IMG/VR virus record: IMGVR_UViG_3300010157_001667
Span: 27,323 to 91,322 of that record
Source of the DNA: a virus
Direction: 5' to 3' (one strand)
Length of the DNA: 64,000 nt
Under the pieces are notes generated by a model. It did not search any database and had not been told where the DNA came from. It saw nothing but the letters and a program-made list of their open reading frames with translations. Below are positions 1,053 through 55,228 of this stretch, in pieces. Numbering within the stretch: position 1 is the stretch's first letter; every line of letters begins with the position of its first letter. Position numbers and translations under genes: made by a program.

Positions 1053-3395
1053 TTACTTAATGCCTGCTAGCTTTTTCCAAGCCGCTACGCTATTGCTAGA
1101 TTCGTTGATATCTGTAGTACCCTTTGATACTGTACGATTTAATTGACTTGCTACAACAGGGATAGTTGTTTGACCAGTTGATTTACGTTTGTTTAAACCA
1201 CCACTGATAACATTCATCATAAAGTCAATGTCAGTTTCGAAGGATGTATCTGTACCGTTTTTACCAGCATCATTGGCCCATTCGTCTATCTTCTTCTTGT
1301 CTTTCTTGTCATCATACTCAATGTCTTTTTTGACTTTCTTGCCAGCTTCTTCTGCTTTGTCGTCATCTTTACCTTTATGGTCTTCATCATATTCGATATC
1401 TTTGGCGACTTTCTTAGCGGCTTTTTCAGCTTTGTCATCTTTCTCACTAGTAGATTCTTCTGACAACATTGCTAATTTTTTGTAAAGATTAAAGAAACTT
1501 GATTCTGACATTGTTTCGCATTTGCAAGGTTTGCAATCACATTTCTTACAAGTGCCTTCCTCTAATTCTTCTTTACCGGCTTCTTCACCAGTTTCATCTT
1601 CAGCTTCATTCATTGATGCTTTCATTTCTTCTTCTGCATCACCGGCTTCAATACCTGCGTTTGCTACAGGAGATGCTTCGCTACCTTCATCAATGTCATC
1701 ACTTGGGTTATATGCGGCTGCGGCTGCATTTGCGGCATCAACATCAGCATCTTCTGCGTCAACTTCTGCGGCACCACTGTCTGGAGGATTATCTTCAGCC
1801 ATTTGATAAGTCATTTCATCTTCTGATTCAACTTCATCAACCATTTCTGTATCTTTACTACAAGAATGTCCTGCTTCCATCATACCACCGCATGCTTCAC
1901 ATGTTTCTTCATCGTGTGAATGTGCATCTCCGCCACCAATGCCTGATAGTTTCTTCATCAAATTCATCATACCATCATGGTCATCAACTACTTCAATTGC
2001 GGCACCACCTGCGCCAATTTCAGCTGGTTCACCACCATTATCTACTGTCATTGGCTCTGCGTGTGACATTCCAGAACTATCATCTCCACCAAATAGTCCT
2101 AGACCTGCTGATTTGATAACACTTAATAGTTGGTCAGCTTCACCGTCCTGTGCTGAAACACTTACTGAATCAGGACTACCTTGTTGACCTTTGCTAATAG
2201 ATACAGTCATACCTTCAGTAACTTCACTATCTTCTAGTAAAGCATTCAATTGCTTTTCTAATGCTTCAAAAGCGAATGCATCATTCTTTACAAACTCTTT
2301 ACCACCAAGACTGAATTTACTTCCTTTTGGTGTGTTCTTTGCGGCCCAGCTGAATGGACTTTCTTCAATATCTGCTTCACCTAGTTGACCTTCTTCAGCA
2401 CCGTAGCCAGCCATTGTGCCTACTACATCAGCACCGGATTCTGTTTCACCAACATAACCTTGAATTGGTACTTGACCGTAACACTCATCTAGGCCTTCTT
2501 TGTAACCTTCATGGTAGCAACGTCCTTCTTCTAAGTCATCGTAGTTCTTGCCACAGTGTGCGTGACCACGTAGACCGTGTGCTTTACCTTCTGCACGTGC
2601 GGCTTGTAATCTTTGATCCATACCTTCTTTAACTTTCTTTTTCTTCAAATCGTTCTTACCCTTACCATCTTCTGCGTAGTCAGGGATACCATTCTTGTTA
2701 GCATCTGGCTTTTTAGCTTTCTTAGCTTCTAATGTTAATGGGCTTGCCAATGCATCACGTGGAGGCTGATCTGCTTCTTTGATTTTCTTCATCTGTGCAC
2801 CTGCAATTTTTGTTGCGGCTTCTTTACCATACTTAGGTGTTAGCTTACGCACTAATGCGTCAAAACCTGTAGTAGCATTGTTGTGCTTGCCAATGTCGCC
2901 CTCTTTCATTTCTTCATCACCACCAAGCTTAAGCGTACCTTTTTCGGAGGCGGCTTTAATTGTGTTAGCAGTTGCCGCATCAGCAGTGCCCATTGGCTTA
3001 CCATCTGCGCCAATAATTTGACTTGCACCTGGCATTGGCTTAACAGTAATACCCATTTCATTCAATGGTGCGTACATTTGCTCAAGATATTCTTTGATAC
3101 TATGCTTTTTAGTTTTCTTTTTGTCGTGTTTAGGTAATTTAACATCTTTACCTTTAGTTACGCCAAACGCACTAAAGTCATACTTCTTATCTTCACCTGA
3201 TGTAGATGTAGCTTTCTTAGGACGGCCCTTGCCTTTTTTCTCGGCAGTTTTGTCTTTGATTTTATTGCCATCTTCATCTTCATCGTCTTTACGACCGTAA
3301 CCACCTGGCTCAGCAGTGTGCTTTAAGCCAGTTTTAGTTTTCTCTGTTGCTTCGTTCAACTGGTCTAGTTGTGATAATAAACTTTTGAAATTCAT
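1053..3395 (-). CDS. Large acidic scaffold/internal-head-like protein
   Basis: 780 residues, very rich in Glu, Asp, Lys and Gly, with no recognisable enzyme domain. The N-terminus (MNFKSLLSQLDQLNEA) has a LNE|A site at residues 13-15, like the T4 capsid-targeting peptides cut by prohead protease gp21 after (L/I)xE. More sites of this form are scattered through the chain: IKE|A, LEE|G twice, LGE|A, IEE|S, IDE|G and INE|S. Cys-rich patches (CEACGG, CKKCDCKPCKC) could bind metal, and a near-repeat (AKKVAKDIEYD / GKKVKKDIEYD) lies near the C-terminus. The neighbours are small terminase and head completion genes. I infer a scaffold-core or internal head protein processed during head maturation (gp22-like role); homology to gp22 is not shown. 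Confidence 0.6.
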   Translation of the reverse strand: MNFKSLLSQLDQLNEATEKTKTGLKHTAEPGGYGRKDDEDEDGNKIKDKTAEKKGKGRPKKATSTSGEDKKYDFSAFGVTKGKDVKLPKHDKKKTKKHSIKEYLEQMYAPLNEMGITVKPMPGASQIIGADGKPMGTADAATANTIKAASEKGTLKLGGDEEMKEGDIGKHNNATTGFDALVRKLTPKYGKEAATKIAGAQMKKIKEADQPPRDALASPLTLEAKKAKKPDANKNGIPDYAEDGKGKNDLKKKKVKEGMDQRLQAARAEGKAHGLRGHAHCGKNYDDLEEGRCYHEGYKEGLDECYGQVPIQGYVGETESGADVVGTMAGYGAEEGQLGEADIEESPFSWAAKNTPKGSKFSLGGKEFVKNDAFAFEALEKQLNALLEDSEVTEGMTVSISKGQQGSPDSVSVSAQDGEADQLLSVIKSAGLGLFGGDDSSGMSHAEPMTVDNGGEPAEIGAGGAAIEVVDDHDGMMNLMKKLSGIGGGDAHSHDEETCEACGGMMEAGHSCSKDTEMVDEVESEDEMTYQMAEDNPPDSGAAEVDAEDADVDAANAAAAAYNPSDDIDEGSEASPVANAGIEAGDAEEEMKASMNEAEDETGEEAGKEELEEGTCKKCDCKPCKCETMSESSFFNLYKKLAMLSEESTSEKDDKAEKAAKKVAKDIEYDEDHKGKDDDKAEEAGKKVKKDIEYDDKKDKKKIDEWANDAGKNGTDTSFETDIDFMMNVISGGLNKRKSTGQTTIPVVASQLNRTVSKGTTDINESSNSVAAWKKLAGIK

Positions 3396-13738: not shown

Positions 13739-14692
13739 TTAGGCGTAACCATACCCTGCGGCGCCTAGATAACTTCTAGCAGTACCAACTCCTGTGGTAT
13801 TTGTGGCAACAACACCTGCATTACTTACTAAATTGGTTATTGATGTTGCTGATCCGGTATCTCCATATCCAAATATAGCTTTATCAGCACCATAAATTGC
13901 GGCTGCTAGACCGGTTCTGGCAGTACCAACACCTGTAGTGTCACTGGCAATAGTACCGGTATTACTTACTAGATTAGTTATTGCAGTAACTCCAATAGTA
14001 CCACCATATCCATATCCAAATATAGCTGTATCAGTACCGTAGCCGGTTGCCGCCATATAACCTCTAGCAGTACCAACACAAGTAGTATTACTAGCAACTA
14101 CTCCCGTATTGCTTACTAAGTTGATCGTTGACACTTGTGTACCACTGGAATTTTCACCAAATGCAAACATAGCTTTATCTGTTCCATATCCTACCGCCGC
14201 AATTTGATTCCTAGCAGTACCGGAACTCCCTACATCAGTAGCAACTACGCCCGTATTTGACACTAAGTTAGTCATCGATGCTCGGCTAGAATTATTAATC
14301 CATCCAAATCCAAATATAGCTTTATCTGTTCCATAACTTGCGGCTGCTAATCCATTTCTAGCAGTGCCTACACCAGTAGTATCTGTAGCAACTACACCAG
14401 TATTTGATACTAGATTAGTTACTGCTGTTACAGCCACTGCTGGATAAACTGATCCAACATCACCGTATCCAAATATACCTTTGTCAGTACCATAAGTAGC
14501 GGCGGCTAAACTATTTCTAGCAGTGCCTACACCAGTAGTATCTGTAGCAACTACACCAGTATTTGATACTAGATTGGTCATTGATACTAAAGTAGTTGAA
14601 TAACCATATCCAAATATTGCCTTGCTTGAGGGGGGAGGTTGCTTTGTTACACTTACCCCGGCTCCAAATGAAATTCCTGCTCCAATATCCAT
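13739..14692 (-). CDS. Kelch-like repeat protein A (candidate adhesin)
   Basis: 317 residues: a ~22-residue leader (MDIGAGISFGAGVSV) and six repeats of ~46 residues with the frame DKAIFGYG, variable loop, TNLVSNTGVVATDTTGVGTAR, LAAAGYG. The pattern resembles kelch or beta-propeller blades. Between FGYG and TNL the sequence varies strongly in length and content, while the rest is nearly constant at the DNA level. It is a paralogue of the next gene, with the same leader peptide and the same promoter region. A virion-bound receptor or glycan binder is plausible; not proven. Confidence 0.7.
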   Translation of the reverse strand: MDIGAGISFGAGVSVTKQPPPSSKAIFGYGYSTTLVSMTNLVSNTGVVATDTTGVGTARNSLAAATYGTDKGIFGYGDVGSVYPAVAVTAVTNLVSNTGVVATDTTGVGTARNGLAAASYGTDKAIFGFGWINNSSRASMTNLVSNTGVVATDVGSSGTARNQIAAVGYGTDKAMFAFGENSSGTQVSTINLVSNTGVVASNTTCVGTARGYMAATGYGTDTAIFGYGYGGTIGVTAITNLVSNTGTIASDTTGVGTARTGLAAAIYGADKAIFGYGDTGSATSITNLVSNAGVVATNTTGVGTARSYLGAAGYGYA

Positions 14693-14743: not shown

Positions 14744-15688
14744 TTACACGGAACCATAACTTGCGGATGCGAGCCAACCTCTGGTAGTACCTACACCTGT
14801 AGTATCGGTAGCTACAACTCCTGTGTTTGATACTAGGTTGGTCATTGATAACTTAGTATTGGTAACATTTTGACCATATCCAAATATAGCCTTATCGGTA
14901 CCATAACCTGCGGCTGCTAATGAATATCTAGCAGTGCCAACACCGGTAGTATCACTAGCAATAGTACCTGTATTACTTACTAGATTAGTTATTGCTGTTA
15001 CATCCCCGGATACTGTACCAAAACCAAATCCAAAAATAGCTTTATCAGTGCCGTAGCCTGCGGCTGCTAATGCATACCTACTAGTACCGACACCTATCAC
15101 ATCATTACCAACTACACCTGTATTTGAAACTAGATTGGTGATTGAGTTTGGACCACCACCTGTTCCATATGAAAAAATAGCTTTATCAGTACCGTATCCT
15201 GCGGCTGCTAACGCATATCTAGCAGTGCCAACACCTGTTACATCATTACCAACTACACCTGTATTTGAAACTAGGTTAGTTAGTGAATAAGTTGTTGCTC
15301 CGATTCCATATCCAAATATAGCTTTATCAGTTCCATAGCCTGCGGCTGCTAACGAATATCTAGCAGTGCCAACACCCGTAGTATCTGTAGCAACTACACC
15401 TGCATTTGATACTAGATTGGTCACCGATACTGCCGCAAATGACCCATCTCGCCCAAATCCAAATATAGCTTTATCAGTACCATAACCTGCGGCTGCAAGT
15501 TGTTGTCTAGCAGTGCCAACACCCGTAGTATCTGTAGCAACTACACCTGTGTTTGATACTAAGTTAGTTATCGAAATTTGTGTACCGGAATTATTAGTAC
15601 CATATCCAAAAATTGCTTTATATGAGGGTGGGGGTTGTGGAGTTACACTTACTCCACCGCCAAATGAAATTCCTGCTCCAATATCCAT
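14744..15688 (-). CDS. Kelch-like repeat protein B (paralogue of A)
   Basis: 314 residues with the same architecture as its neighbour: leader MDIGAGISFGGGVSV, six blades with FGYG, variable loop, TNLVSNTGVV, VGTAR, LAAAGYG. The loops (TNNSGTQISI, RDGSFAAVSV, GTGGGPNS, FGTVSGDVTA and others) differ from those of protein A, apart from a shared SGTQ motif. Six blades could close a propeller with all variable loops on one face. Probably a virion surface protein; no enzyme motif is seen. Confidence 0.7.
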   Translation of the reverse strand: MDIGAGISFGGGVSVTPQPPPSYKAIFGYGTNNSGTQISITNLVSNTGVVATDTTGVGTARQQLAAAGYGTDKAIFGFGRDGSFAAVSVTNLVSNAGVVATDTTGVGTARYSLAAAGYGTDKAIFGYGIGATTYSLTNLVSNTGVVGNDVTGVGTARYALAAAGYGTDKAIFSYGTGGGPNSITNLVSNTGVVGNDVIGVGTSRYALAAAGYGTDKAIFGFGFGTVSGDVTAITNLVSNTGTIASDTTGVGTARYSLAAAGYGTDKAIFGYGQNVTNTKLSMTNLVSNTGVVATDTTGVGTTRGWLASASYGSV

Positions 15689-27011: not shown

Positions 27012-27338
27012 TTAAACTCTAAAACTCTCTCCACACCCGCATCGGTCACGCTCGTTCGGGTTGGTGAACTCAAAACCCTCATTTAACCCATTACGCACAT
27101 AATCTACGACCATGTTCTTTAAATACACATCATGTTTTTTATCTACTAAAATAATAAAACTTGGTTGTGCATAATTTATTATTGATTCATCATATTTGTA
27201 TTCATCAACATATTCTAATACATAAGCAAGACCAGAGCACCCGGTCGTTTTTACACCTATACGAATACCAAGGCCTTTACCTCGTTTTGATATTATTTGT
27301 TGAATTTTGTTTGATGCTTTTTCTGTTAAGCTTATCAT
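27012..27338 (-). CDS. iscA: IscA/HesB-type iron-sulphur carrier protein
   Basis: 108 residues, the normal A-type carrier length. The three conserved cysteines are present: TTGCSGLAYVLEY and the C-terminal DRCGCGESFRV. The family binds and transfers Fe-S clusters to apoproteins, so here it is an auxiliary metabolic gene of the kind reported in marine T4-like phages. It overlaps the upstream gene by 4 bases (ATGA), so it is translated with the late/internal-protein cluster and not with the exonuclease. Confidence 0.9.
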   Translation of the reverse strand: MISLTEKASNKIQQIISKRGKGLGIRIGVKTTGCSGLAYVLEYVDEYKYDESIINYAQPSFIILVDKKHDVYLKNMVVDYVRNGLNEGFEFTNPNERDRCGCGESFRV

Positions 27339-48606: not shown

Positions 48607-49851
48607 CTACGGTTTTTTAACCCTTTTAATAGATGAAAGATTTATGATTCTGTTTAACATATCTATACTTTCGTTAGATAATTCTAATTGTGGATCGGGC
48701 TTTTGTTGAAATAAAGCATTTTTAGCAATTTTTAAGAAATTAGCCATCATTTCAGATGATGGCATAACACCCTGGTCAAGTTGTAGTTTTATATAAACTG
48801 CTTCATCTTGTAAGGTATCTAATATTTGTTTTTTAGTATACGGTGGATTCGCATTACTTAATTCTTGTTTATAGGCACTAATGAAATGCTTATATAAAAA
48901 TGGAATATTTATTTCCATCCATTTATTAAACTGGTCGTTACTCCAATTTAATCTACCTTCTTCGTTTAATTGTAGTGCTTCTTTTAAGTTATGATTAATA
49001 TCTTCTGCCTGTATATCAACATTAGGACCAACCAAATTTGGATAATTAACATTTTGATTGCCACCCTGCTGATCACCTTGCTTATTTGCAAGTGATTTAT
49101 AAAGTTGTGTTACAGCGTTTAATAAACCACGTATTTCAGTTGCATCATTTTTTGCACCTGCTTGTAAAGTTTTCAATTCGTTAGCATCTTTTGCAAATTG
49201 TTGAAGTTGAGTTGAAGTATCTGCAAGTTGTTGTGATGTTTGTTTTTTATAATCATTGGTGTTATCTCTATAAGTGGAGAATCTTTCTTCTTTATCATCC
49301 AATTCTTTTTGAGTAGCTTGAAGTTTTTTGTAAACAGCATCATAGTTAACCGTTGCCTTACTATCAATACTGTTTACTAAACTTTGTAATTTTTTAACAT
49401 CACTATTTTCTGCTGAGGGGTTAGAAGCCAAAGCCATAATTTGTGCTTCCATTTCTTTATACTGCTTAGGATCCAAATTTGGTTTATCTTTTAATTCTTC
49501 TAATTGCTTTTGTAGTTTCTCTAATTCATCACCACTTACTTTTGCTTTTTGTCTAGCGTCAGCACCGCCGGCAGTTACTCTAGCAGTTAATTGTTTAATT
49601 CTTTCAACTTCATCTTCATTGGCATCTAATTCTCCCTGAAGAGTTTGAATAGCATTTCGTTGTGTATTGATTAGATTATTTTGAGAGGCATCAATTTTTT
49701 GTTGTTGATTTAACTTATCAGCCATATACAATGATAATGCCTGTTGGCTATCATAACCGGGAAACTTTAACATGGCTCTCTGCATTAAATCCTGATCTAA
49801 AGATAATGCAGGAGTACTTGGTGCTTCTCTCAACAATGCTGATATTTTCAT
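48607..49851 (-). CDS. Coiled-coil internal-head-type protein
   Basis: 414 residues. The start MKISALLREAPST has LRE|A at residues 7-9, a T4-type capsid-targeting and cleavage signal. A long coiled coil (residues ~50-240, many Gln/Lys/Asp/Leu heptads) is followed by a Gly/Gln/Asn linker (KQGDQQGGNQNVNYPNLVG) and a helical C-terminal domain (FNKWMEINIPFLYKHFISAYKQEL). It abuts the 558-residue gene and is transcribed from the late promoter at 51534. Scaffold-core or ejected protein (inference). Confidence 0.6.
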   Translation of the reverse strand: MKISALLREAPSTPALSLDQDLMQRAMLKFPGYDSQQALSLYMADKLNQQQKIDASQNNLINTQRNAIQTLQGELDANEDEVERIKQLTARVTAGGADARQKAKVSGDELEKLQKQLEELKDKPNLDPKQYKEMEAQIMALASNPSAENSDVKKLQSLVNSIDSKATVNYDAVYKKLQATQKELDDKEERFSTYRDNTNDYKKQTSQQLADTSTQLQQFAKDANELKTLQAGAKNDATEIRGLLNAVTQLYKSLANKQGDQQGGNQNVNYPNLVGPNVDIQAEDINHNLKEALQLNEEGRLNWSNDQFNKWMEINIPFLYKHFISAYKQELSNANPPYTKKQILDTLQDEAVYIKLQLDQGVMPSSEMMANFLKIAKNALFQQKPDPQLELSNESIDMLNRIINLSSIKRVKKP

Positions 49852-51550: not shown

Positions 51551-53098
51551 TTAACCCAGTACCGCATAGAAGGGCAATGGCATGATGACTTCATCATGGT
51601 CACGTATTTGGTTCTCTAAGTCAAAATGATAGTCACTTAATTGCTGTAGCATACGTGTCACTAACAAACTAGCCATAATCAAGTCATCTGTATCACCAAT
51701 TTTTGCGGCATAACTACCACCATGTGCAACAAATGCTTTTAATTCACTTATAAGACTACGACTATTTACGGTCATTTTCTTGCTTTCAACCAATGTTTTG
51801 AACTTAGCACAACTTGCTAATTTACTCTTATTAGTAGTATTGAATCCTCTACGTCCTTTACCTGCTTCACTGATAAAGATACCCGGAATATTACTTTCCC
51901 CGTATTCATTTAATGAAATGATCGCGGCTTCACCAATTCCATTACATTCAATACTGTAATAGATGTTATTAGGTTCATTGGTGCATTCTACTATATATTT
52001 GCTTATTTGTGCTAATAGTTTAATTTGGCTAGGGATATCTGTTTTATTGTGTTTCCACTCACCCACTTGAGTAGTAGTGTTTGCTTCAAATATTTGAATA
52101 GCAGATGGGTCGCCACCTGTACCAAGACTTGGATCCAATCCTATACAATATATATTACCTTTTGTTGGTTTTTGATACCAACGAACTTGTCCTATACGAC
52201 TTACGGGTTCTATACCTTCCATCATTAACAATGTGTTTGGATTAATCAATGTTTCATCCGCAATAATAAATTCGCAACCAATTTCTCGATTGAAACGATC
52301 TTCACCTAACTGTGCTTTTATTTCATCAGCCCATTGTTGATCTCGTCCGGGTTGTTCACTCCAATGCGCTCTGTATGCTCTAAATCCATTAACTCCTACT
52401 TCAGTGGTGTTACCAAAATCATCTTCAGTCTTGTTAGCACCTTTCCAGATATAAGCAAACTGATCCTCATCACTGTTTGGTGTACTTGTAATAATAGCTT
52501 TACCACCAGTTGACAATGTTGGTGTAATAGCTGTCCAAAATTCTTTAGCTATACTTGGACGAACGAATGCAAACTCATCTAAGTATAATAGTGTAATAGA
52601 CATACCACGACCTGTATTTTCAGTAGTTGTTGCACTAACAATACGACTACCATTCTCAAAGTCTAATGAGCCTTTATTGTATGTAGTAACACCTGCTTTA
52701 ATATGATCGGGGCAGTTTTCATATGCATAACGTATACGTTGCATAATCTCCTGAGCACCTGTATATTTGTGTGCCGCAACTAAGATAGTACTGTCTGGAA
52801 CAAACATTGCATACCAAAGTAAATATCCGGCGGCTGAAGTTGATTTACCACTCTGTCGAGGCATCAAACTAATACTATAACGATAGTTGTGATATGTTTC
52901 AATCAATCGTTTTTGATAAGCCCAGGGGTGATATACCATACTACCCTTTGTAGGGTGTTGTATCATAAAGAAGTTATCCATAAAATATAGATAACCTGTA
53001 TCTGGGTCACAGCATTTAATAAAATCCTGTAGTTCTTTATCAGTTTTAAAAACTGTTTTAGTGTACGGGTTCTTTACTAATGAAGGTGTATTACTCAT
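51551..53098 (-). CDS. gp17: Terminase large subunit (T4 gp17-like)
   Basis: 515 residues. ATPase domain: Walker A MPRQSGKST (79-87), Walker B TLLYLDEFAF (169-178), coupling motif TSTPN (205-209). Nuclease domain: IGLDPSLGTGG with the first catalytic Asp at 322, then IECNGIGEAAI and DTDDLIMASLL near the end. It packages DNA into the prohead by ATP-driven translocation and cuts concatemers. The small subunit is 47 kb away in this window. A perfect TATAAATA late box ends 6 bases before the ATG; no ribosome site. Confidence 0.95.
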   Translation of the reverse strand: MSNTPSLVKNPYTKTVFKTDKELQDFIKCCDPDTGYLYFMDNFFMIQHPTKGSMVYHPWAYQKRLIETYHNYRYSISLMPRQSGKSTSAAGYLLWYAMFVPDSTILVAAHKYTGAQEIMQRIRYAYENCPDHIKAGVTTYNKGSLDFENGSRIVSATTTENTGRGMSITLLYLDEFAFVRPSIAKEFWTAITPTLSTGGKAIITSTPNSDEDQFAYIWKGANKTEDDFGNTTEVGVNGFRAYRAHWSEQPGRDQQWADEIKAQLGEDRFNREIGCEFIIADETLINPNTLLMMEGIEPVSRIGQVRWYQKPTKGNIYCIGLDPSLGTGGDPSAIQIFEANTTTQVGEWKHNKTDIPSQIKLLAQISKYIVECTNEPNNIYYSIECNGIGEAAIISLNEYGESNIPGIFISEAGKGRRGFNTTNKSKLASCAKFKTLVESKKMTVNSRSLISELKAFVAHGGSYAAKIGDTDDLIMASLLVTRMLQQLSDYHFDLENQIRDHDEVIMPLPFYAVLG

Positions 53099-53881: not shown

Positions 53882-54256
53882 TTATTTTCTTTTGTAACCT
53901 TTAAAAGGTTTAACCAAACTTGTAGTATTAGTGTCATCTGGTTCTTGTGATTTACTATAGGGTACAACATTTTTTTTATCTGTAGGTATAGTTTTAGTAG
54001 CTGAAACAAACATATTATGTTCTTCTTCAGTATATGGATGAACAGTGTTATATTTTTCAGCAAAACTGGCATTATCCATTTCTACTGCATCTTTACTTTT
54101 ACCATCAGCCATGCTCATAGCCATCATTAAACGGTTTAAATGATATATGCGGTCATAACCGCCTATATCACGGCTTTTAGAAACACCAGGGGTAGCTTGA
54201 CTATGATGGTGATGCATTTTGCCTTCACCTTCAGTTACAAATTCAGTTGCTCTCAT
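53882..54256 (-). CDS. Internal head protein-like (capsid-targeting N-terminus)
   Basis: 124 residues. MRATEFVTEGEGK resembles the T4 targeting peptide MKTYQEFIAE|A, with a VTE|G cut site at residues 7-9. A natural HHHHS run follows at ~15-18. The rest is polar (LNRLMMAMSMADGKSKDAV, EEHNMFVSATKTIPTDKK) and it ends VKPFKGYKRK. The sister gene upstream ends KGFKGYKRK, so the pair shares both ends. Overlaps that gene by 4 bases. Packed internal protein inferred. Confidence 0.65.
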   Translation of the reverse strand: MRATEFVTEGEGKMHHHHSQATPGVSKSRDIGGYDRIYHLNRLMMAMSMADGKSKDAVEMDNASFAEKYNTVHPYTEEEHNMFVSATKTIPTDKKNVVPYSKSQEPDDTNTTSLVKPFKGYKRK

Positions 54257-54648
54257 TTTCTTTTATATCCCTTAAATCCTTTAATCGGGCTTATTTTATC
54301 TACATCAGGTGCTTCTTCGCTAGCCATTGAACCAATTTGTTTTGCGTCACTAGGTGGCATACCCATAGAACGTAATGCATCATGTATGTAATCTGCTACA
54401 TGAGGATCATAACTTACTATGATTTCATTTTCACCAAATATTGATTCTTTACCATCAAATTCAGGGACACCATCTTTAGCACGTTGTTGAGCTCCTTTAG
54501 CACCTGCAATTGCTACACCAAAGCGATATTGTAAATAAGGGTCTTGGTTCTTAAGTGCAGGAATTTTAAAAGCACCGGGTAATGCCAATCCTACATCACG
54601 TGTGATTGATCCTGTTTTACCTTCACTGATAAATTCTTTTGCTCTCAT
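54253..54648 (-). CDS. Internal head protein-like (capsid-targeting N-terminus)
   Basis: 131 residues. MRAKEFISEGKTG is the best match in the window to T4 MKTYQEFIAE|A: EF, Ile at P3, Glu at P1 in the same position (residue 9 against 10), small residue next (ISE|G). After the cut site: DVGLALPGAFKIP, YRFGVAIAGAKGAQQRAKDG, DPHVADYIHDALRSMGMPPSDAK, and the end IKGFKGYKRK. Mature protein probably basic and compact. Internal (ejected or DNA-associated) head protein inferred. Confidence 0.68.
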   Translation of the reverse strand: MRAKEFISEGKTGSITRDVGLALPGAFKIPALKNQDPYLQYRFGVAIAGAKGAQQRAKDGVPEFDGKESIFGENEIIVSYDPHVADYIHDALRSMGMPPSDAKQIGSMASEEAPDVDKISPIKGFKGYKRK

Positions 54649-54649
54649 A

Positions 54650-55228
54650 TTAAATACTACTGTTAAAAGTCACTTGAGATGCAATAAAATGTGTTATATT
54701 TGCATTGGCAATTGGATTAGCTAGAATTCTGATATTTCCACCATTTACATCCATGTTATAGTTAGAAACTGCACTACCTGAAAAGGTTAGTCCATACCCG
54801 GTAAACTTGACAGATGCGTTACTATTTGTAATCTGTGCTGATATTGTAATGTCTTGGCTATCACTATTGGCTGGATTACTTGAACGAATTTGAAATACAC
54901 CCTGTGTAAATGCATTAGCTGGATATTCATAGATAACTTGGTTAGCTGTTAATCCAGTAGTATATGTTGAATTTGTGTTGACTGTTGTGAGAAATAAATT
55001 ACTAAAGTTATTATTAATCTTACTAAACGCTGTACGTAATGGATCACCTAATCCGTCATTAGGAGTGGCTCCAATATTAATATATTCTTGTGAACCGTAA
55101 GGTCCTTCACTGCTAACAAATGATAAGGTGTCAACTACTGGAATGGCTTCAACAACAACAGGTGTATTGACAATAGGTTCTGGAGTCTCTTTTGGTATCT
55201 TGCTTGCTTTGATAACTTTTTGTGTCAT
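54650..55228 (-). CDS. Fibre-like N-terminal-module protein
   Basis: 192 residues. After a Pro/Val-rich start, residues ~48-80 (INIGATPNDGLGDPLRTAF, SKINNNFSNLF) are the short module seen at the start of many phage fibres and of the 1-958 gene. The rest is beta-rich with ITISAQITNSNASVKFTGYG. It ends without a tip domain, so it may be a short adaptor to which other fibres attach. Late box 21 bases upstream, TAGGAATTAT as ribosome site. Confidence 0.65.
   Translation of the reverse strand: MTQKVIKASKIPKETPEPIVNTPVVVEAIPVVDTLSFVSSEGPYGSQEYINIGATPNDGLGDPLRTAFSKINNNFSNLFLTTVNTNSTYTTGLTANQVIYEYPANAFTQGVFQIRSSNPANSDSQDITISAQITNSNASVKFTGYGLTFSGSAVSNYNMDVNGGNIRILANPIANANITHFIASQVTFNSSI

Follow-up and report, generated by a model that had tools for sequence, protein, structure and literature searches.

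The overlapping twin genes A and B encode, with a probability that we put at about 0.7, tandem paralogues that have diverged within a new family of small T4-like phage proteins, internal to the head (head-core proteins), and that carry a portable N-terminal tag. The best reading of this tag, as judged from sequence comparison, is that it is a T4-type signal for capsid targeting and cleavage by the gp21 protease. The twins come from an uncultured T4-like phage from a lake. The stretch of DNA analyzed here (64,000 nucleotides; hereafter the window) comprises bases 27323-91322 of the 91,322-bp virus record G000. The 171-kb record G002, which includes the end sequence of the window, has the twin pair at the same coordinates as G000, and the 524-kb record G001 also carries identical twins. 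G000 and its 171-kb extension G002 are probably fragments.

Both twins are minus-strand ORFs that lie where the preliminary description placed them, with the ATGA overlap and the common start and end that it reported (Table 1). The start is MRAKEFISEG in A and MRATEFVTEG in B (common pattern MRAxEF[IV]xEG), and both proteins end with FKGYKRK; a check of all ORFs of the window found this start and end in none besides the twins. Identity of the last 7 residues is seen in only 8 of the 143,916 protein pairs among the predicted proteins of five related contigs, and, among the matches listed in a pattern scan of IMG/VR, all full-length proteins with the FKGYKRK end start with MRAx[E/D]F, so that the common end of the twins is not due to chance. 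The array is situated among structural genes near the terminase, and short overlaps like ATGA recur within the arrays of relatives. Elsewhere in the window, two tandem, closely similar proteins consisting of NLVSNTGVVATDTTGVGTAR...GTDKAIFGYG repeats are encoded at 13739-14692 and 14744-15688 (minus strand), and the product of 27012-27338 (minus strand), with CGCGESF near its end, looks IscA/HesB-like by eye.

Table 1. Twin genes, their parts and surroundings (window positions), and fusions of the family domain in other loci (locus positions).
Feature	Position	Strand	Description and basis
Gene A (upstream twin)	54253..54648	-	131 aa, type A; ORF, alignment A1
Gene B (downstream twin)	53882..54256	-	124 aa, type B; ORF, alignment A2
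ATGA overlap, 4 bp	54253..54256	-	stop of A + start of B; sequence
N-terminal tag of A	54622..54648	-	MRAKEFISE, CTS-like; putative cleavage after E9; alignment A1
N-terminal tag of B	54230..54256	-	MRATEFVTE; alignment A2
Middle domain of A	54322..54621	-	residues 10-109, with LPGAFKIPALKNQDPYLQYRFGVAIAGAKG; transitive BLAST and hhalign homology to B middle
Middle domain of B	53951..54229	-	residues 10-102, with GGYDRIYHLNRLMMAMSMADG; transitive BLAST and hhalign; AF2 helices
C-terminal module of A	54256..54321	-	SEEAPDVDKISPIKGFKGYKRK; alignment A1; family-restricted motif
C-terminal module of B	53885..53950	-	SQEPDDTNTTSLVKPFKGYKRK; alignment A2
Terminase large subunit (context)	51551..53098	-	PHROG terminase E=4e-105, Pfam Terminase_6N E=2.4e-18
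Protein with baseplate/tail-fibre-like N-terminus, directly upstream of A	54650..55228	-	PHROG tail families, E about 1e-5
Family domain behind GRFNPPHQGH-motif protein	L267 2044-3381; L270 2044-3381; L272 1841-3001; L277 1841-3001		

Relatives of the twins are numerous in IMG/VR. Homology searches identified 80 loci with relatives of gene A (down to 63% identity) and 80 loci with relatives of gene B (down to 48% identity). A pattern scan for FKGYKRK followed by a stop codon matched at least 120 stretches; the matches listed include 119 distinct sequences with this ending, five of them cut at the N-terminus, and every full-length protein among them starts with MRAx[E/D]F. Altogether, 311 tagged family proteins were collected from the loci of twin homologs with a pattern that demanded R2 and F6, so the conservation of these two residues in this set is not independent evidence. 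At positions left free by the pattern, A3 is present in 311 of 311 proteins, E5 (not D5) in 308 and E at exactly position 9 in 310; position 7 is I, V or L in 308 of the proteins. Within the types, M1, R2, A3, F6 and E9 are invariant in type A (alignment A1), and M1, R2, A3, E5, F6 and E9 in type B (alignment A2). A search with a middle-domain HMM retrieved 337 distinct ORFs, 320 of which bear the strict tag; among the other 17, nine have variants (e.g., MKIKELIVE, MKVFEIISE, MRAKEFVLKE), four follow another protein as part of a fusion, and the N-terminus is incomplete in the remaining four. The fusions in L267 and L272 retain an internal tag-like segment, and the fusion partner in L267, the one of the four that was scanned, matches cytidylyltransferase families.

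The family forms tandem arrays with up to four family genes per locus and at least six types, in variable orders (A-B, A-A-B, B-E-C-A and E-D-A, among others); in one locus (L161), four family genes are accompanied by a tagged DUF6321 protein. Scans of the twins against Pfam and PHROG yielded nothing above the curated cut-offs, the further family members scanned have no PHROG match and no convincing Pfam match, and a tblastn search of 50,697 cultured phage records with both twins and three further family proteins found no match. By these searches, and as far as they reach, the family is new: neither Pfam nor PHROGs nor cultured phages contain it.

The middles of the family proteins were compared after the first 10 and the last 24 residues of each had been trimmed off. 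Of the 311 trimmed middles, which are from uncultured phages, 310 fall in one BLAST cluster at E<1e-5; twin A is connected to twin B by a chain of four BLAST links, each below 1e-6, and the two groups separate at 1e-8 and stricter. The trimmed groups A and B align by hhalign over 89 collinear columns with E=1.1e-4, whereas ten column-shuffled alignments all gave E>=0.12. The HH-suite probability for the direct A-B pair is only 56%, and each of the two groups matches type C strongly (98% and 97%, respectively). Because the trimmed middles form one BLAST-linked family and the profiles align over 89 columns, the twins are ancient, divergent paralogues. The preliminary description had taken the middles for unrelated and had named homology between them as a finding that would refute its interpretation; for the twin pair, BLAST clustering and profile-profile alignment reveal exactly this homology and rule out unrelated middles.

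The C-terminal module of the family follows the pattern SxE...SP[VI]xxFKGYKRK. In type A, S110, E112, S120, F125 and G127 are invariant (alignment A1); in type B, E105 and S113 are invariant, and S103, F118, G120 and Y121 are conserved in at least 90% of the sequences (alignment A2). Among the matches listed in a scan for PVKGFKGY, 94 of the 97 ORFs in the examined loci are family members; of the remaining three, two are short fragments that end like the family proteins, and one is a chance match at an internal position. Matches to this motif are thus essentially limited to the family, which indicates that the C-terminal tail belongs to the family and is not a general tag; the earlier proposal of a common C-terminal tag was accordingly set aside, as this family alone was found, among these matches, to have the motif at its C-termini.

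AF2 modeled both twins with moderate confidence and predicted a few helices, those of B at residues 36-49 and 77-89, with short strands in addition in A; the N-terminal tag is a low-confidence end of the model (pLDDT 44 in A and 50 in B). Foldseek searches with the B model gave no PDB hit and, in BFVD, a single weak match to a protein of an uncultured phage, those with the A model found nothing significant in BFVD, and PDB profile searches found nothing credible.

The N-terminal tag has a much wider distribution than the C-terminal module. A scan for ATG-encoded MRAxEFIxE matched at least 120 stretches, compared to 10 stretches in the whole collection for the permuted control pattern MRAxFEIxE, an enrichment of at least twelvefold. 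Among the matches listed, the examined loci contain 143 tagged ORFs, of which 75 belong to the family and 68 do not; over all loci, the count rises to 533 distinct proteins with the tag, 459 from the family and 74 from outside it. For 60 of these 74, the start codon lies no more than 20 codons downstream of the nearest in-frame stop. The best 68 of the 74 form 29 clusters after removal of the tag, and their alignment shows only M1, A3, E5, F6 and E9 in common, together with a near-invariant R2; most of these proteins were fetched by the tag pattern, so that the informative point is that they have nothing else in common. Family matches of this cargo include GH19 (lysozymes, n=6), DUF6321 (n=5) and GNAT (n=3), as well as ADPrib_exo_Tox, ParB_N and Kinase-PolyVal with one match each. 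In some loci, genes that carry the tag on different bodies lie close together in groups of three or four (L407 1405-5690, L404 5135-7946, L334 6741-12193). In G000 and its extension, the exact tag is found on the twins only. The exchangeable cargo that was originally proposed is hence observed for the N-terminal tag across phages, on 74 non-family proteins, but neither for the twin pair, with its homologous middles, nor for the C-terminal tail.

Several other N-termini are similar in construction. The product of L286 1634-2635 (minus strand) begins with the tag-like MRFNEFIPE, contains a NPPFGRGSD segment that recalls adenine methyltransferases and belongs to a PHROG of unknown function; a Pfam scan gave no hit for it. 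Nine-residue N-termini built like the tag are also present in the proteins encoded at 48607-49851 of the window (minus strand; MKISALLRE/A) and at 2046-3116 of G000 (L282, minus strand; MKISQIIQE/T).

The tag resembles the capsid-targeting sequence (CTS) of T4. The internal proteins IPII and IPIII of T4 start with MKTYQEFIAEA (translated from AF158101), with cleavage written MKTYQEFIAE/A. Foreign proteins that carry this 10-residue CTS are taken into heads, and gp21 cleaves the sequence off (PMC3012670, PMC10229621, PMC9026906); residues 4 and 7 count for targeting, and residues 8 and 10 for processing (PMC9026906). F7, I8 and E10 of the CTS correspond to F6, I/V/L7 and E9 of the tag, which thus ends, like the CTS, in hydrophobic-x-E, followed by a variable residue. 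The tag differs in being one residue shorter and in having no clear counterpart of the targeting residue Y4, and the match to the cleavage site is weakened by the shortness of the [IVL]xE motif. Relatives encode the gp21 protease (Peptidase_S77) and Gp23 in the gene order gp21-gp22-gp23, with a possible cleavage site, QLLAE/S, in the N-terminus of gp23; in G001, Peptidase_S77 is encoded about 95 kb from the twins. Searches of G000 and G002 detected no gp21, gp22 or gp23 gene, several contigs with tagged non-family cargo had no gp21/gp23 hits, and an HK97-type protease is absent from the tested records; the Portal_T4 model matched nowhere and is uninformative. Taken together, the spread of the tag over non-family proteins, its likeness to the CTS and the gp21/gp23 genes of relatives lend good support, by comparison, to the suggestion of the preliminary description that the N-terminus is a packaging tag.

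The twins could alternatively have arisen by plain duplication, in tandem, of a small phage protein with a cytoplasmic or structural role; their ends would then simply be the most constrained parts of the fold and contain no packaging signal. The homologous middles, the common occurrence of tandem arrays and the confinement of the C-terminal motif to the family (among the matches listed) would all be expected in this case; however, the same nine N-terminal residues on 74 distinct non-family proteins and the match to the T4 CTS argue against such a duplication, which we consider rather unlikely. Slightly less probable still is a tag that targets proteins elsewhere, namely, to a membrane, a phage compartment, the tail or baseplate, a host factor or a protease. 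Such a destination would be compatible with the tagged-cargo contigs in which gp21 and gp23 were not detectable, with the residue after E9, which is not limited to A, G or S in the family and can be D, N, R or Y in non-family cargo, and with the hydrophobic stretch right behind the tag in one GH19 protein (L333). The identity to EFIAE of the T4 CTS, the presence of gp21 and gp23 in relatives with longer records, and the resemblance of the ADP-ribosyltransferase and kinase cargo to known ejected effectors, such as the packaged ADP-ribosyltransferase Alt of T4 (PMC9026906), speak instead for the head.

Gene conversion or recombination at the 5'-end, which would keep the ends alike in the absence of a shared function, appears highly improbable. 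The tails of paralogues from the same locus are indeed more alike than those of shuffled pairs (4.07 vs 2.63 +/- 0.19 of 8 residues; 0 of 1000 shuffles), but this co-variation may be plain shared ancestry, which alone could suffice. Where both twins end in FKGYKRK, the 21 nucleotides that encode this tail usually differ between them at 2-4 positions; these synonymous differences indicate that the tail DNA has not been recently homogenized, and recent conversion of the ends was set aside on these grounds. Moreover, the tag is also found on unrelated genes.

If, then, the tag is a T4-type capsid-targeting signal, its nine residues would target the protein into the head, where gp21 would cleave it off, putatively after E9, and the packaged family proteins would be ejected to function in the host. 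The same nine residues are a portable label present on unrelated cargo in related phages, whereas the C-terminal module is part of the family's own structure, with a basic tail that may help packing against DNA. Given that the same tag is attached to dozens of unrelated proteins, sequence may reveal which proteins enter the host with a virus: head-carried, injected proteins of uncultured T4-like phages could be predicted, and the predicted set includes an ADP-ribosyltransferase, GNATs, a kinase and lysozymes. More tentatively, and at odds clearly below even, MRAxEF[IVL]xE could be the head-loading label of many uncultured freshwater phages, and the FKGYKRK family, the arrays of which differ from phage to phage, a group of fast-diversifying injected anti-host or anti-restriction proteins; the injected protein sets of these phages could then be listed from sequence.

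Comparable arrangements exist in other phages. The tagged kinase-like protein of L376 has homologs in the jumbo phage XacN1 and in Alishewanella phage Slicko01, the N-termini of which (MKQVRLSQFLSE/APLPDDWD and MKIYNLYSTLLE/APLPDDWD, respectively) are different from the tag but similarly built, which fits an exchange of the tag between lineages. At least three Slicko01 genes start with MKI[DY]xLYxxL[LI]E, and neighboring genes with this common start are found in L526 (888-2109) and L534 (Slicko01 85888-91594); one of the bodies is the homolog of the L376 kinase-like protein, and two begin, by eye, with FHAT/FHVT segments. No virion data were found for this type of tag, and the virion chitinase of XacN1 (PMC5852040) is devoid of it, so that XacN1 provides no proteomic support. 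In the giant phage SPN3US, gp53 and gp54 are, according to the available text of the source, processed paralogues and ejection proteins of high abundance, the first 15 residues of which are identical (PMC5694885). They resemble the twins as a paralogous pair with a common N-terminus that contains XxE-type cleavage sites but differ in the giant-phage protease and the sequence of the tag, and that text reports no common C-terminal tail for the pair.

The closest parallel is T4 itself. Like the T4 internal proteins, the twins are small, are encoded side by side and carry a short N-terminal peptide with F-I-x-E on different bodies, and their relatives possess the gp21 protease and gp22/gp23. Homology to the bodies of IPI, IPII or IPIII was not detected: PHROG gave no match, Pfam none that was convincing and the PDB profile searches none with E below 0.15. 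The bodies of the T4 internal proteins also diverge among themselves (PMC9026906). In contrast to the latter, the tag comprises 9 residues, MRAxEF[IVL]xE compared to MKTYQEFIAE, packaging is what we infer here, and the family is large, with its own conserved C-terminal module and arrays of up to four genes. With respect to T4 Alt, one non-family tagged protein matches ADPrib_exo_Tox; unlike Alt, the twins show no similarity to enzymes and are linked to this protein by the tag alone. Thus, the principle is already known from T4, whereas the family and the breadth of the tag are new.
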